Source: Microvirga arsenatis
Lineage (GTDB): Bacteria; Pseudomonadota; Alphaproteobacteria; Rhizobiales; Beijerinckiaceae
DNA length: 64,000 nucleotides
Reading direction: 5' to 3'
Assembly (NCBI RefSeq): GCF_009910705.1
Contig: NZ_JAAAXJ010000015.1
Location: 1-64,000, forward strand
In this document: in pieces, positions 33,925 to 39,416 of the stretch
Layout: each line of letters begins with the position of its first letter
How positions within the stretch are numbered: position 1 is the stretch's first letter
Program-made: the position numbers and the translations under genes
The notes under the pieces: generated by a model
Databases searched by the model: none
The model's input: only the letters and a program-made list of their open reading frames with translations
What the model was told of the DNA's origin: nothing

Positions 33925-36104
33925 ATGCATCGCTCCTTCATCGTCGGCTCGCTCGCAGCTGCGTTTCTCTCCGGCACTGCTCTCACCGCCTCGGCGGCCG
34001 AGTATTTCGACCGCATCGCCAGCTTCCCCATTACGGCGAACGTGCCGAAGGACGGGGACCCGAAAGCCGAGACCGTCGCTGAGATCATCACGGCGAGCGA
34101 GGACGGCAAGCTGCTGATCTACACGGACAGCCCGCGCAAGGCGCTGGGCTTCATCGACATTACCGACCCGGCGCAGCCGAAGGCGGGCGGATCGCTGGTT
34201 CTGGGTGGCGAGCCTACCTCCGTGAAGGTGGTGGGGCAGAAGATCTATGCAGCCGTCAACACGTCCGAGAGTTTCACCAATCCAAGCGGCAAGCTCGTGG
34301 CAATCAACTTGGCGGATCGGAAGACCGCCGCCGAATGCCCGCTGCCCGGCCAGCCGGACTCCGTCGCCGTCAATGCGGGCGTCCTGGCCGTGGCGATCGA
34401 GAACGAGCGCAATGAGGAACTGAACGGGGGAGCGCTTCCGCAGTTGCCCGCCGGCTCCCTGGTCGTTGCCTCTCTCAACGGCGATCATCTCGACTGCGCG
34501 AGCCTGAAGACCGTGGCACTGACCGGACTGGCCGCTGTCGCCGGCGAGGATCCGGAACCCGAATATGCCGACGTCTCCAGCGAGGGCAAGGTTGTGGTCA
34601 CCCTTCAGGAGAACAACCACATTGTCGTGGTCGACGGGAAGGCGGGCAGGATCGAGGCGCACTTCTCCGCCGGCACGGTCGACCTGAAGGCGGTCGATGC
34701 CAAGAAAGACGGCAAGATCGAACTCGCAGACAGCATGGGGAAGGTGGCTCGCGAACCGGATGCGGTGCACTGGATCGACGCAGGCCGCTTTGTGACGGCG
34801 AACGAAGGCGACTGGAAGGGTGGCTCCCGCAGCTTCACCATCTTCAACAGGGACGGCAGCGTTGCGTACGAGTCCGGAGAGAGCCTCGAGCACGAGATTG
34901 TTTCGCTCGGGCACTATCCCGATAAACGCAACAAGAAGGGCGTCGAGATCGAAGGTGTCGAGACCGGCCGCTTCGGCAGCGATAACCTGATCTTCGTCGG
35001 GTCCGAGCGGGCGTCGGTGGTCGGGGTCTACCGCGACACAGGCGCGGCGCCCGAACTCGTGCAGGTGCTGCCGACCGGCATCGGGCCTGAGGGGCTGCTC
35101 GCCATTCCGAGCCGCAACCTGTTCGTCGCCACCAGCGAGACCGACCTGCACGGGGACGGCGGCGTTGCGCCCCATGTGATGATCTACCAGCGCGCAGAGC
35201 GCGCCGCTCCCGCCTACCCGACGATCCGTTCCGGGAAGAGGGCCGACGGCCTGCCGATTGCCTGGGGTGCGCTTTCCGGCCTCGCGGCGGACCGGACCCA
35301 GGCCGGCAGGCTCTTCGCGGTGACCGACAGCGTCTATGCGGGCGCGCCCCGCATCCTCACGATCGATGCCACAAGGAAGCCTGCGGTGATCACGGGCGAA
35401 ACGCTCGTCACCCGTAACGGCGCTGCGGCGGAGAAGCTCGACCTCGAAGGCATCGCCACGGCCGATGAGGGCTTCTGGCTTGCTTCCGAGGGCAATCCGG
35501 AGAAGGGCCTCTACAACCGTCTCATCAAGGTCGACGCCAAGGGCGCGATCCAGGAGGAGATCGCCCTGCGGTCGATCTCGAGAAAGGCGCGAAGAACTAC
35601 GGCTTCGAAGGCGTGACCGTCACCGGTTCGGGCGCCGACGAGACCGTGTGGCTCGCCGTTCAGCGCGAATGGGCGGATGACGGGAAGAACGCCGTGAAGC
35701 TTCTCGCCTACAAGCCTTTGGACAAGAGCTGGAGCGCCGTGCGTTATCCGCTCGACAGCGCCGAGGCCGGCTGGCTCGGTCTCTCGGAGATCACCGCGGC
35801 GGGCGATCGCGTCATCATCATCGAGCGCGACAACCAGATTGCCGAGAAGGCGAAGGTGAAGAAGCTCTATGCGGTTTCGATGGCCGACATGAAGCCCCTG
35901 AAACTCGGTGGCGAGTTGCCCCTCGTGCAGAAGACGCTGGTGCGCGATCTTCTGGCCGACCTGAAGGCGGGCAAAGGCTACGTGCTCGACAAGGTCGAGG
36001 GCTTCACCATCGATGCAGCGGGCGACGCCTACATTGTCACCGACAATGACGGCGTCGACGACTCCTCCGGCGAGACGCAGTTCATCAAGCTCGGCAAGCT
36101 TTGA
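33925..36104 (+). pseudogene. Secreted phytase-like/esterase-like protein, disrupted by one frameshift
   Basis: Reading frame 1 from ATG 33925 gives a signal peptide (AAAFLSGTALTASAA), a propeller-like domain (LLIYTDSPRKALGFIDITDPAQPKAGGSL), and then the phytase-like domain (GLPIAWGALSGLAADRTQAGRLFAVTDSVYAG, LEGIATADEGFWLASEGNPEKG). At about 35566-35571 the coding frame jumps back by one base: the true continuation (VDLEKGAKNYGFEGVTVTGSG) is in the other frame and runs to 36104, ending SSGETQFIKLGKL. Adding one C in CTGCGGTC would restore ALPVDLEKG. Codon quality is good on both sides, so the break is recent or a sequencing error. Family: esterase-like activity of phytase, PF13449. Confidence 0.85.
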
Positions 36105-36191: not shown

Positions 36192-36761
36192 TCAGCCCGG
36201 CAGCAGAACGGTGTCGACCACGTGGATGACGCCGTTCGACTGCATCACGTCGGCGATGGCGACCGTGGACTTGCCGCCCTTCTGGTCGGTGATGACGAGG
36301 GTGTTGCCGGAGGGGGTGACGGTGAGCGTCGCGCCCTGGACGGTCTTCAGGGTGGCCTTGCCGCCGCCTTCCTTCACCTTCGCGGCGAGATCCTGCGCGG
36401 TCATCCTGCCGGGCACCACGTGATAGGTGAGCACGCCGGTGAGCTGGCCCTTGTTCTCGGGCTTCAGCAGCGTGTCGACCGTGCCGGCGGGCAGCTTCGC
36501 GAAGGCTGCATTGGTGGGGGCGAACACCGTGAACGGGCCCTTGCCCTGCAGGGTCTCCACGAGGCCCGCCGCCTTCACCGCCGCCACGAGCGTCGTGTGG
36601 TCCTTCGAATTGACGGCATTCTCGACGATGGTCTTCGACGGATACATCGGAGCGCCGCCCACGGTCTTGGTCTGCTCCTGGGCCGTTGCGGACAGCGACA
36701 GCGTGAGAGCCGGCGCCGCGAGGGCAAGAGCGGCGGTCATGCAGGCAATGCGAATGTTCAT
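36192..36761 (-). CDS. Secreted fasciclin-domain protein
   Basis: A 189-residue protein with a Sec signal peptide (ALALAAPALTLSLSATAQ, cleavage near residue 28). One FAS1 domain follows: KTIVENAVNSKDHTTLVAAVKAAGLVETLQGKGPFTVFAPTNAAFAKLP is the first conserved box, LTYHVVPGRM the H-box, and GVIHVVDTVLLP the C-terminal box. FAS1 proteins mediate adhesion at the surface; the mycobacterial relatives MPT70/MPT83 belong to the SigK regulon. It lies downstream of a SigK/RskA-like module and has the same promoter motif (36838-36864). Confidence 0.9.
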   Translation of the reverse strand: MNIRIACMTAALALAAPALTLSLSATAQEQTKTVGGAPMYPSKTIVENAVNSKDHTTLVAAVKAAGLVETLQGKGPFTVFAPTNAAFAKLPAGTVDTLLKPENKGQLTGVLTYHVVPGRMTAQDLAAKVKEGGGKATLKTVQGATLTVTPSGNTLVITDQKGGKSTVAIADVMQSNGVIHVVDTVLLPG

Positions 36762-36837: not shown

Positions 36838-36864
36838 GTACACCGCATCGGGACGCTTGGATGC
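36838..36864 (-). promoter_or_regulatory. ECF-type promoter motif of the fasciclin gene
   Basis: Minus strand: GCATCC (36864-36859), 15 bases, GTGTAC (36843-36838), 76 bases upstream of the fasciclin start. The same pair of boxes with identical spacing occurs before the neighbouring sigma gene and the DUF4394 gene. Confidence 0.65.
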
Positions 36865-36897
36865 GGGATCGCGTTCTCGTGAAGAAAATTTTTGAGG

Positions 36898-37116
36898 TTA
36901 GGCGGTGAAGGCCGTCGGGCCCCTCAGATAGGCCTCCATGCGGTCGTCCTCGACTTCGGCATCTTCCTTGCTCACGAGGCGCGGCATGTCCTGCTCGGTC
37001 TCTGGAACAGGCTGCTCGTCGACGGGCGTGATATCGTTAAGAGCGCTGTGGACGGCCCGCAGAAGTTCGCTCTGCTTGTCATCGTCCGGACTCTCAGGCG
37101 GCTGGCGTGGAGTCAT
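36898..37116 (-). CDS. Hypothetical acidic small protein
   Basis: A 72-residue, strongly acidic, soluble protein (PPESPDDDKQSELLRAVHSALNDITPVDEQPVPETEQDMPRLVSKEDAEVEDDRMEAYL). No family is recognised; the LLRAVHSALN stretch is the only likely helix. AAGGAGG stands 6 bases before ATG 37116, a very good ribosome-binding site, so it is very probably translated. It sits between the anti-sigma gene (63 bases upstream) and the fasciclin gene on the same strand, and may be cotranscribed with the sigma/anti-sigma pair. Confidence 0.65.
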   Translation of the reverse strand: MTPRQPPESPDDDKQSELLRAVHSALNDITPVDEQPVPETEQDMPRLVSKEDAEVEDDRMEAYLRGPTAFTA

Positions 37117-37178
37117 GACATCCTCCTTACGGATTAGCCGAAAGTATTGCGCCGATCCGTGTCACAAATAGGGCGCCG

Positions 37179-37922
37179 TCACAGTGCGGTGGACGCCGTC
37201 CCCTTCATCACCACCGGGCCGGTGGGCAGGCCGGTGGGGGAGCCGGTGAGCGGTTCGACCGAGATGGCAAAGAGCTGGTTCGAGTGCGGCCGGGGTAGGT
37301 TGCGCAGCTCGAGCAGGACGGTCTTCGCCGTTTGGACGACGCCCACGGAGACAGGGGCGCCCGCCGGATCCGGGAAGGTCCAAACCTGGATCGAATGGTT
37401 GTGCGGGATCTCCATGTTGCCCAAGGGCGTGAGTTCGGCGCGCCCATCCGCGAAAGTGCGCAGCACGGCGCCAGGCTGGTTGGCCTCGTTCATGAGAACC
37501 GCGACAAGCGTCGGCTGGCGGGTCGCTTTGTCGGCGAAGTAGCCCACGCCCAGCGCGAGCAGGAGCGCGGCCAACGCACCGGCCATGCCGAAGCTGCGCC
37601 AGAAGGCGAGGCTGTTCCACAAACCCTGCAGCAAGCCGGGCGATGTCTCCCGCCGTGCGGGGGGCGCGGGCCGCACGGCAGCTGCCGCAGGCTGAGCTTC
37701 GAGACCGGCCTCGATCTGCTGCCACAGGACATCGCTCGGCACGACATCGGCAGCCGTGTTGTCCCATTCCGCGAAGCGGGTGCGCCATTGCCGGACGAGA
37801 GCCTGAAAGCTCTCGTCAGAGTCGAGCAGGCGCTCGGCGAGCGTGCGCTCCTCGCCCTCGAGCAGGCCGAGCACATGCTCGGCGGCCAGACGGTCCTGAT
37901 CGTCCCGCGTCATGTCATGCAC
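37179..37922 (-). CDS. Anti-sigma factor, RskA-like
   Basis: A 247-residue transmembrane anti-sigma factor. The cytoplasmic N-terminal helices (DQDRLAAEHVLGLLEGEERTLAERLLDSDESFQALVRQWRTRFAEWD) bind the sigma factor. One transmembrane segment follows (FGMAGALAALLLALGVGYF). The extracytoplasmic C-terminal domain is RskA-type (HNHSIQVWTFPDPAGAPVSVGVV, QLFAISVEPLTGSPTGLPTGPVVMKG). Regulated proteolysis of RskA releases SigK in mycobacteria. It overlaps the sigma gene by 13 bases, so the two are coupled. Confidence 0.9.
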   Translation of the reverse strand: MHDMTRDDQDRLAAEHVLGLLEGEERTLAERLLDSDESFQALVRQWRTRFAEWDNTAADVVPSDVLWQQIEAGLEAQPAAAAVRPAPPARRETSPGLLQGLWNSLAFWRSFGMAGALAALLLALGVGYFADKATRQPTLVAVLMNEANQPGAVLRTFADGRAELTPLGNMEIPHNHSIQVWTFPDPAGAPVSVGVVQTAKTVLLELRNLPRPHSNQLFAISVEPLTGSPTGLPTGPVVMKGTASTAL

Positions 37923-38476
37923 TCCCGCAGGGATACCAGAGACCGGCGGATCCAGGACTTGATCGTCCCGAGCGGCACGCCGAGGCGCCCGGCCAACTCA
38001 CCGTGGCTGAGGCCGTGGATATAGGCCAGGGTGATGGCCTGGCGGCGCGCCGGCTCCAGGCGCTCCAGGCAGCGCTTCAGGCTTCCCGTATCCGACAGGC
38101 GCATCATCACGGCTTCGGCATTCTCCTCCTCGCTCACGAGCCCCATCGGCTCGAAATCCTCGACGAGATCCGTGCGGGTCTCGCCGCGCAGGATGTTGAG
38201 CGCGCGGTTGCGCAGGATCGCATAGAGCCAGGAGCGGGCGTCGCCGCGCGCCGGGTCGAAGCTGTCGGCCTTGCGCCAGACCTGCAGGAACGTGTCGTGC
38301 ACGGCCTCCTCGGCCAGCGCGCGCCGCCGCAGGAGGCGCATGGCGACGCCGAGCATCCGCGGCGCCTCGCTGTCATAGATGGCGCGCAGGGCAAGCCGGT
38401 CGCCCCGGGCGCACCGGCCGAGGGCGTCGTTCAGGTCCAAGGCCGGGGAGGCCATCTCCCCCAGCGCTGCCTTCAC
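37910..38476 (-). CDS. ECF sigma factor, SigK-like
   Basis: A 188-residue ECF sigma factor. Region 2: ALRAIYDSEAPRMLGVAMRLLRRRALAEEAVHDTFLQVWRKADSFDPARGDARSWLYAILRNRALNILRG. Region 4: LERLEPARRQAITLAYIHGLSHGELAGRLGVPLGTIKSWIRRSLVSLRECM. The pairing with an RskA-type anti-sigma factor fits the SigK (ECF19) group. Its own promoter (38505-38531) carries the GCATCC-N15-GTGTA motif shared with the fasciclin and DUF4394 genes, implying autoregulation. Confidence 0.9.
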   Translation of the reverse strand: MKAALGEMASPALDLNDALGRCARGDRLALRAIYDSEAPRMLGVAMRLLRRRALAEEAVHDTFLQVWRKADSFDPARGDARSWLYAILRNRALNILRGETRTDLVEDFEPMGLVSEEENAEAVMMRLSDTGSLKRCLERLEPARRQAITLAYIHGLSHGELAGRLGVPLGTIKSWIRRSLVSLRECMT

Positions 38477-38504
38477 GCGGGATCTCCGTTTTCACCTGCC
38501 GACA

Positions 38505-38531
38505 ATACACCTGAGCCTGCCGCACGGATGC
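38505..38531 (-). promoter_or_regulatory. ECF-type promoter motif of the sigma / anti-sigma operon
   Basis: Minus strand: GCATCC (38531-38526), 15 bases, GTGTAT (38510-38505), ending 28 bases from the sigma start codon. It is the best candidate for autoregulation of the SigK-like factor. Confidence 0.65.
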
Positions 38532-38559
38532 AGCGGCCCGGGAAAAATTCATGCCCCCT

Positions 38560-38586
38560 GCATCCATAGAGGATTTCGGCGGGTAA
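38560..38586 (+). promoter_or_regulatory. ECF-type promoter motif of the DUF4394 gene
   Basis: GCATCC (38560-38565), 15 bases, GGGTAA (38581-38586), 50 bases before the DUF4394 start. The second box is the least conserved of the three (GGGTAA against GTGTAC/GTGTAT). Confidence 0.55.
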
Positions 38587-38636: not shown

Positions 38637-39416
38637 ATGAAATTCACGTCATTGGCCGCAGCACTGGTCGGATCGACCCTGCTTGCGGGAGCGGCCCAGG
38701 CGCAGAGCGTCGCCGCGCTCGTCGGCGACGACACGATCGCCATCGTGGACGTGGCAGGGAAGAAGGTCGACAGGTCGATGAAGGTCACCGGCCTCACAGG
38801 GGCTCTGGCCGGCATCGACGTTCGCCCGGCCGACGGCATGCTCTACGGGGTCGTGGCCGACGGCACGGTCGTCACCATCGATCCGGCTTCCGGCAAGGCG
38901 ACGATGAAATCCAGGCTCGATGCCATGCTCGCCCCCGGCACCACGGCAACCGTCGACTTCAACCCGGTTGCGGACAGGCTGCGGATCATCGGCTCGGACG
39001 GGGCGAACCTTCGCGCCAACGTGGATGACGGCAAGGTCACCAGGGACGGCCAGCTGAAGTTCGCCGACGGCGACATGCACAAGGGCAAGGCGCCGAAGGT
39101 GGTCGCGGGCGCCTACACCAATTCCATGAAGGGGGCGAAGGAGACGACCCTGTACGACATCGAGGCCGGCGGCGTGCTGGTCAGGCAGGCGCCCCCGAAC
39201 GACGGCGTGCTCAACTCGGTCGGCATGCTGGGCATGGAAGCCGGCAGCGTGGCCTTCGACATCGTTGCGGCCGAGGCCGCGAACGAGGCGTGGCTCATGA
39301 GCGGCAAGACCCTCTACAAGGTCGATCTCGCCACCGGCAAGGCAACGGAGGCTGCCACGATCGCGGGCGTGGACGGAACGGTTCGCGACATTGCGGCGCT
39401 GCCGAAGTCCCTCTGA
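38637..39416 (+). CDS. Secreted DUF4394 domain protein
   Basis: A 259-residue protein with a Sec signal peptide (SLAAALVGSTLLAGAAQAQ). A DUF4394 domain follows: DDTIAIVDVAGKKVDRSMKVTGL, GIDVRPADGMLYGVVADGTVVTIDPASGKA, TATVDFNPVADRLRIIGSDGANLR. These read as propeller-like repeats. Function unknown. It is transcribed away from the SigK-like gene and carries the matching promoter motif. ATG 38637 follows GGAGGGAAAAAGC; the upstream open frame is not needed. Confidence 0.87.
   Translation: MKFTSLAAALVGSTLLAGAAQAQSVAALVGDDTIAIVDVAGKKVDRSMKVTGLTGALAGIDVRPADGMLYGVVADGTVVTIDPASGKATMKSRLDAMLAPGTTATVDFNPVADRLRIIGSDGANLRANVDDGKVTRDGQLKFADGDMHKGKAPKVVAGAYTNSMKGAKETTLYDIEAGGVLVRQAPPNDGVLNSVGMLGMEAGSVAFDIVAAEAANEAWLMSGKTLYKVDLATGKATEAATIAGVDGTVRDIAALPKSL

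Follow-up and report, generated by a model that had tools for sequence, protein, structure and literature searches.

A small regulon under a SigK-like extracytoplasmic function (ECF) sigma factor was predicted in Microvirga arsenatis. The window, a stretch of 64,000 nucleotides (contig NZ_JAAAXJ010000015.1, positions 1 to 64,000), encodes this sigma factor together with an RskA-type anti-sigma factor, a fasciclin-domain protein and a DUF4394 protein. The sigma factor likely reads a promoter box, GCATCC-N15-GKGTA, before its own operon, the DUF4394 gene, the fasciclin gene and a gene for an RTX-repeat protein elsewhere in the genome. The result would be a very small regulon with positive feedback, a reading given a probability of about 0.85. 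Gene identities, box conservation, co-occurrence and background density were computed; from these we infer that this sigma factor reads the boxes, as well as the signal and the protein functions.

The three boxes of the cluster, each with a spacer of exactly 15 bases, lie where the original prediction had placed them. Its distances to the start codons also hold, with 76 bases for the fasciclin gene (ATG at 36761), 28 for the sigma gene (GTG at 38476) and 50 for the DUF4394 gene (ATG at 38637). These are the only strict matches in the window. Shuffling the window 100 times (single bases, in 1-kb blocks) gave a mean of 0.03 strict matches and a maximum of 1. At the density found in 29 congeners lacking the sigma gene (0.66 per Mb), the chance of a box in one upstream region of 150 nucleotides is about 5e-5.

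A search for the sigma factor covered the own genome and 119 relatives; 20 loci of the same genus and 20 more distant ones (family and order) were fetched and mapped. Counts for the genus refer to 21 loci, the window included. In the alignment of orthologous promoters, the box is present in 51 of 53 upstream regions: 18/18 for fasciclin, 14/14 for DUF4394 and 19/21 for the sigma gene, where one box is the variant GCGTCC. The original prediction thereby passes its own check on conservation of the boxes in orthologous promoters. The flanks are 59-82% identical (0.59 for sigma, 0.70-0.80 for fasciclin and 0.80-0.82 for DUF4394). Retention of the box in 51 of 53 regions beside such diverged flanks argues that the predicted boxes are selected and not due to chance. 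Identity in the box columns, 0.97-1.00, was computed on box-bearing rows only and is partly high by construction because the two boxless rows were dropped; the count of 51 of 53 and the identities of flanks and spacers are the informative values. The spacer of the DUF4394 promoter (window 38555-38586) is unusually conserved, with an identity of 0.88 versus 0.66 for the sigma and 0.66 for the fasciclin spacers. As in SigK regulons, the sigma operon and the fasciclin gene are preceded by the same box.

Gene content within the genus follows the sigma factor. Of 48 congeners, 18 have a sigma match with an identity of 75% or more, and one more has a match at 70%. DUF4394 was found in 14 of the 48, in all 14 cases adjoining the sigma orthologue, and in none of the 30 congeners that fall short of the 75% sigma threshold (Fisher p 6e-9, kinship uncorrected). 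Three genomes (loci L047, L049 and L051) keep the sigma and fasciclin genes; DUF4394 is found nowhere in these genomes, nor is a divergent strict box. A natural deletion is seen in genome G015. It keeps the fasciclin gene (83% identical) and the adjoining small open reading frame (ORF), and the sigma, anti-sigma and DUF4394 genes are missing between these and the DUF3775 gene; its best sigma match is 31% identical. The fasciclin box of G015 has drifted to ACATCC-N15-CCGTA, so that both blocks depart from the genus consensus. Fasciclin paralogues in the genus were rejected as targets: none of 21 such loci outside the cluster has the box (from 30 fasciclin loci inspected among 47 listed matches). 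Fasciclin genes adjoining distant ECF/RskA pairs (L066, L071, L074 and L075; 37-41% sigma identity) show by eye TGAAAC-N16/17-CGT-like sequences and not GCATCC. At L070, the fifth distant fasciclin locus, the TGAAAC-like sequence is not clear. TGAAAC-N16/17-CGT may represent another class of ECF promoter linked to fasciclin genes.

The genome-wide search provided an estimate of regulon size. Strict matches number 98 in 14 genomes with the sigma gene (78.9 Mb) and 108 in 29 genomes without it (163.8 Mb), nine of the latter being one repeated element; five genus genomes (G017, G019, G025, G031 and G037) belong to neither set. After removal of 38 cluster sites and 5 RTX-gene sites, the non-target density is 0.70 per Mb with the sigma gene versus 0.66 per Mb without. 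The genome-wide check proposed with the original prediction thus agrees with it: apart from the cluster and the RTX gene, the box is at background density. Among the 60 strict matches outside the cluster in the 14 sigma-bearing genomes, 24 were inspected in context, including all six of the own genome; only the RTX gene stood. As far as seen, the predicted regulon consists of the three cluster sites and the RTX gene, since the non-target densities agree and these 24 of 60 matches were inspected. The own genome (5.05 Mb) has nine strict N15 matches: three in the cluster, one before the RTX-repeat gene and five others. These five overlap mechanically called ORFs, which is weak evidence because such ORFs overlap the boxes in the window too. 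One box lies 7 bases before a putative NAD-kinase-like ORF. It was rejected, as look-alikes, judged by their spacer letters, occur in sigma-less genomes too.

The unlinked RTX gene is the predicted fourth target. Between its box (C67:69468) and the start of this gene are 113 bases, with an alternative in-frame start 17 bases past the box. The encoded protein combines RTX calcium-binding repeats (PF00353) with a conserved N-terminal region. The strict box is found in six loci of this gene, the own included, and a GCATCT variant in a seventh (L147). RTX matches of at least 72% identity are present in seven genomes, each with a sigma orthologue. Weaker matches (38-52%) in G011, G026 and G036 are without the box. 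In G047 and G031, the RTX gene is near a SigK-like sigma gene. On contig 4 of G047 (L057/L138), a second SigK-like sigma/anti-sigma pair is divergent to the RTX target, and the promoter of this pair is itself non-canonical. The three-gene local regulon proposed earlier thus stands for its three cluster units and loses its purely local character.

DUF4394 is paired with the sigma gene more constantly than fasciclin is. A DUF4394 profile scan of named genomes gave at least 566 relatives, and the best 80 loci form a set that favours the query and includes some of the Microvirga loci; in 75 of the 80, sigma and anti-sigma matches are both beside DUF4394, 66 of these in divergent orientation. A fasciclin match within the 4-kb flanks was detected in 6 of the 80 loci, all Microvirga. 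DUF4394 is hence the predicted constant partner of the switch, with fasciclin optional. The proposal of DUF4394 as a new regulon member is supported by this pairing and by the 14 boxes in the genus. Of 79 DUF4394 genes (one contig was too short), 74 have GCATCC in the 200 bases before the start, versus 8% of control stretches drawn from these loci. Between GCATCC and GTA, the distance peaks at 15+2 (44 cases) and 15+3 (12 cases), with about 0.1-0.2 expected. The pairing is also present on annotated plasmids of Shinella, Allorhizobium and Deinococcus, where GCATCC precedes DUF4394 by eye and none of the three fits the full pattern. The Shinella plasmid (L264) has two sigma/anti-sigma pairs together with DUF4394 and fasciclin. 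By eye, its DUF4394 gene has GCATCC-N15-TGTGTC, its first sigma gene a distant GCATCC-N15-GTGTT and its fasciclin gene a TTGAAAC-like sequence.

The sigma factor has its closest match among solved structures in SigK of Mycobacterium tuberculosis (4nqw_A, E 6.6e-25, 91 bits), with RpoE of R. sphaeroides a close second (86 bits). Its cysteine pair aligns with Cys133 and Cys183 of SigK, which are reported to influence the RskA-SigK interaction and to be required for SigK activity (PMC7509140). Both columns have cysteine in 116 of 116 aligned rows, of which several represent one locus twice and 20 are more distant sigma genes; because the latter share the pair, it is not specific to the GCATCC class. 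The anti-sigma factor matches RskA_C (PF10099) with 82.6 bits against a cut-off of 29.4, is below the cut-off of the NCBIfam equivalog NF052375 (83 versus 100), and has one hydrophobic stretch; its gene overlaps the sigma gene. In the ECF classification, SigK of M. tuberculosis was assigned to ECF18 in one paper and its anti-sigma factor to AS19-1 (that is, ECF19) in another.

Several observations weigh against the proposed regulon. The sigma factor scores below the NCBIfam SigK cut-off (NF007228; 139 versus 226 bits) and is therefore labelled SigK-like, not SigK; two other ECF models outscore NF007228 (206 and 193 bits), likewise under their own cut-offs. The SigK/RskA type assigned in the original prediction is supported by the PDB and Pfam matches and the cysteine pair, despite the unreached NCBIfam threshold. 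Two second-copy sigma genes (L056, L057) lack the canonical box. In the 20 more distant loci, the box stands before 4 of 20 sigma genes and 4 of 5 DUF4394 genes, and the sequences compared are not independent. The reversed pattern, used as control, has 14 matches in the sigma-bearing genomes and 46 in the sigma-less ones. The box (108) exceeds this control even without the sigma gene; the background is not flat, and the sigma-less genomes are for this reason the fairer null. Further targets may exist in other genomes, given 24 of 60 matches inspected. Beyond the genus, the near-strict pattern GCATC[CT]-N14..16-GNGTA precedes only 32 of 80 DUF4394 genes and 42 of 75 sigma genes. A looser N15 pattern was adopted because the misses showed GCATCC with different -10 blocks; it was picked post hoc, from these near-strict misses, and fits 58 of 79 DUF4394 upstream regions versus 0.2% of controls. 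In the 66 divergent loci it precedes 63 sigma genes and 58 DUF4394 genes, with 55 loci having it on both sides. The -10 block varies by lineage, with GTGTA, GGGTA, CGGTA and GGCTA common. The drifted fasciclin box of G015 still fits this cross-genus pattern and comes from one genome only. DUF4394 is matched in 27 of 398 sampled Pseudomonadota genomes (24 over the cut-off). With 1.5-kb flanks, 8 of 8 genomes of the same order, own included, show linkage to sigma and anti-sigma genes, but only 1 of 8 from the remaining orders of the class and 0 of 11 from outside the class, or 1 of 19 outside the order.

The proposed mechanism may start at the membrane, where the single-span RskA-type anti-sigma factor would hold the ECF sigma factor. 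Judging from the family, an envelope or redox signal would cause its release. The switch is probably membrane-held and redox-tuned. RNA polymerase loaded with the sigma factor would then recognise GCATCC-N15-GKGTA and transcribe the sigma operon, the fasciclin and divergent DUF4394 genes of the cluster, and the distant RTX-repeat gene. Transcription of the own operon would provide positive feedback. In Hyphomicrobiales, DUF4394 would be the usual output, with fasciclin added. Fasciclin and RTX proteins are typically surface or exported proteins. As DUF4394 is in addition predicted to be propeller-like, the switch probably yields a handful of exported proteins. More tentatively, and rather doubtful at present, DUF4394 could be the dedicated extracytoplasmic partner of a whole branch of SigK/RskA-type switches. 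It might be a secreted beta-propeller, produced by the switch and either feeding back on the RskA domain or serving as the main effector, and fasciclin, known best from mycobacteria, might be just one among several optional surface outputs. The -35 GCATCC and the N15 spacer would be fixed, with the -10 block drifting with the sigma lineage.

The conserved promoters may be real and be read by another ECF sigma factor, the linked SigK-like one being one of several able to use them. Ten sigma matches (E <= 0.001) in the own genome would allow this, and four of five DUF4394 loci without a linked sigma match retain a box-like sequence by eye (the contig of the fifth begins inside the gene). Within the genus, however, DUF4394 occurs only with this sigma gene, the sigma gene itself has the same box in 19 of 21 loci, and the fasciclin box has drifted in G015, which lost the sigma gene. 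Reading by another sigma factor is improbable in view of these patterns. A still smaller likelihood is given to the boxes being transcription-factor sites that use the GCATCC half. The fasciclin box lies within an imperfect 9-bp inverted repeat that keeps 7 or more of its 9 pairs in 12 of 18 loci (core Microvirga), two with a paired change, and the high spacer conservation before DUF4394 would also suit such a site. The sigma and DUF4394 boxes, in contrast, show 0-5 of 9 repeat pairs, and two conserved blocks at a fixed spacing of 15 bases upstream of starts resemble ECF promoters. The repeat may be an operator for a second regulator.

Least probable, and largely refuted by spacing and flank comparison, is a pattern made by chance and the shared ancestry of close genomes. 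The Microvirga genomes are indeed closely related, and some non-target matches are shared between sigma-bearing and sigma-less genomes; yet the flanks diverge where the boxes stay, and the same spacing is found in many other genera. Control by the linked SigK-like sigma factor is the preferred reading.

Features of the locus in the window
Feature	Position	Strand	Basis
Fasciclin-domain protein, 189 amino acids, predicted target	36192..36761	-	PF02469, E 1.4e-37; hydrophobic N-terminus, signal-peptide-like by eye
Fasciclin promoter, GCATCC-N15-GTGTAC	36838..36864	-	Sequence; box in 18/18 cluster orthologues; drifted in sigma-less genome G015
Imperfect 9-bp inverted repeat around fasciclin promoter, possible operator	36840..36869	.	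7/9 pairs in window
Acidic protein, 72 amino acids, isoelectric point 4.2	36898..37116	-	Without family match; genus-conserved; without own box
Anti-sigma factor with RskA_C	37179..37922	-	PF10099, E 4.1e-23; one hydrophobic stretch near residues 110-131
SigK-like ECF sigma factor, GTG start, Cys136 and Cys186	37910..38476	-	Overlaps anti-sigma gene
Sigma/anti-sigma operon promoter, predicted autoregulatory, GCATCC-N15-GTGTAT	38505..38531	-	Sequence and same-genus conservation
DUF4394 divergent promoter, GCATCC-N15-GGGTAA	38560..38586	+	Sequence and same-genus conservation; similar boxes in relatives
DUF4394 protein, 259 amino acids, predicted core target	38637..39416	+	PF14339, E 5e-70; signal-peptide-like N-terminus by eye; predicted beta-propeller-like

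The gene order, fasciclin / small ORF / anti-sigma / sigma and, divergently, DUF4394 / DUF3775 / C13-type peptidase, is largely retained in the closest loci. Fasciclin orthologues of the cluster are 63-92% identical to the window protein. The structure model of DUF4394 is all-beta and confident, with a predicted local distance difference test score (pLDDT) of 87.4. Foldseek matched it to generic beta-propellers only (best E 2e-8, template modelling score about 0.4-0.6). The function of DUF4394 therefore does not follow from structure.

The 72-residue acidic protein named as part of the cluster is real and genus-conserved, with a homologue in 12 of the 20 same-genus loci fetched; it has no match in protein family libraries. 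Its regulon membership was rejected. No box was found upstream of the gene in 13 rows, window included, and the homologue persists in G015, where the sigma gene was lost; the protein is for these reasons probably outside the regulon. A one-base length difference near 35570 divides a phytase-like gene (window 33925-36104) into two frames. The gene is a putative pseudogene, or the split is a sequencing error, since relatives carry intact copies.

No paper on DUF4394 and no link of it to SigK/RskA systems was found in the open-access literature searched. Its tie to an envelope-type sigma switch in many genera would be a first functional lead for this family. As a promoter rule, GCATCC-N15-NNGTA could make the regulons of SigK-like sigma factors readable from alphaproteobacterial genomes, and the SigK/RskA mechanism would become accessible to study in soil and plant bacteria that are non-pathogenic. 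Three points are new as far as the open-access literature was searched: the occurrence of the box in alphaproteobacteria, the constant pairing with DUF4394 and the RTX gene as a target.

The fasciclin-sigma-antisigma operon on plasmid pVag1 of Pantoea vagans has the same three families. GCATCC-N15-TCGTA is found 54 bases before its fasciclin start, by a loose pattern that matches twice more within 8.5 kb. It differs in that fasciclin leads the operon and no DUF4394 is annotated nearby. The RpoT-like ECF18 sigma factor of Pseudomonas syringae is encoded in a sigma/anti-sigma gene pair, as here. In contrast, toluene-tolerance targets are reported for its P. putida orthologue, and the text of PMC3597554 does not contain the word fasciclin. 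ECF18 is named as a neighbour of ECF19, the group of SigK, in PMC7509140.

The closest known systems are those of SigK itself. MPT70 and MPT83 of mycobacteria are fasciclin proteins, and the mycobacterial SigK box is reportedly CCATCC. The mycobacterial logic seen in the original prediction appears to be present here, but its extension to Gram-negatives is not new: an mpt83-sigK-rskA cassette is published for Yersinia enterocolitica, and the SigK site is reported as conserved in Gram-negatives (PMC7509140). Shared with the SigK-RskA-MPT70/MPT83 system of M. tuberculosis and the Yersinia cassette, as described there, are an ECF sigma factor with an RskA-type anti-sigma factor, two cysteines, a fasciclin-family target and autoregulation. 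The Microvirga system differs from both by a constant DUF4394, an optional fasciclin, an added RTX-repeat gene and GCATCC as the -35 block.

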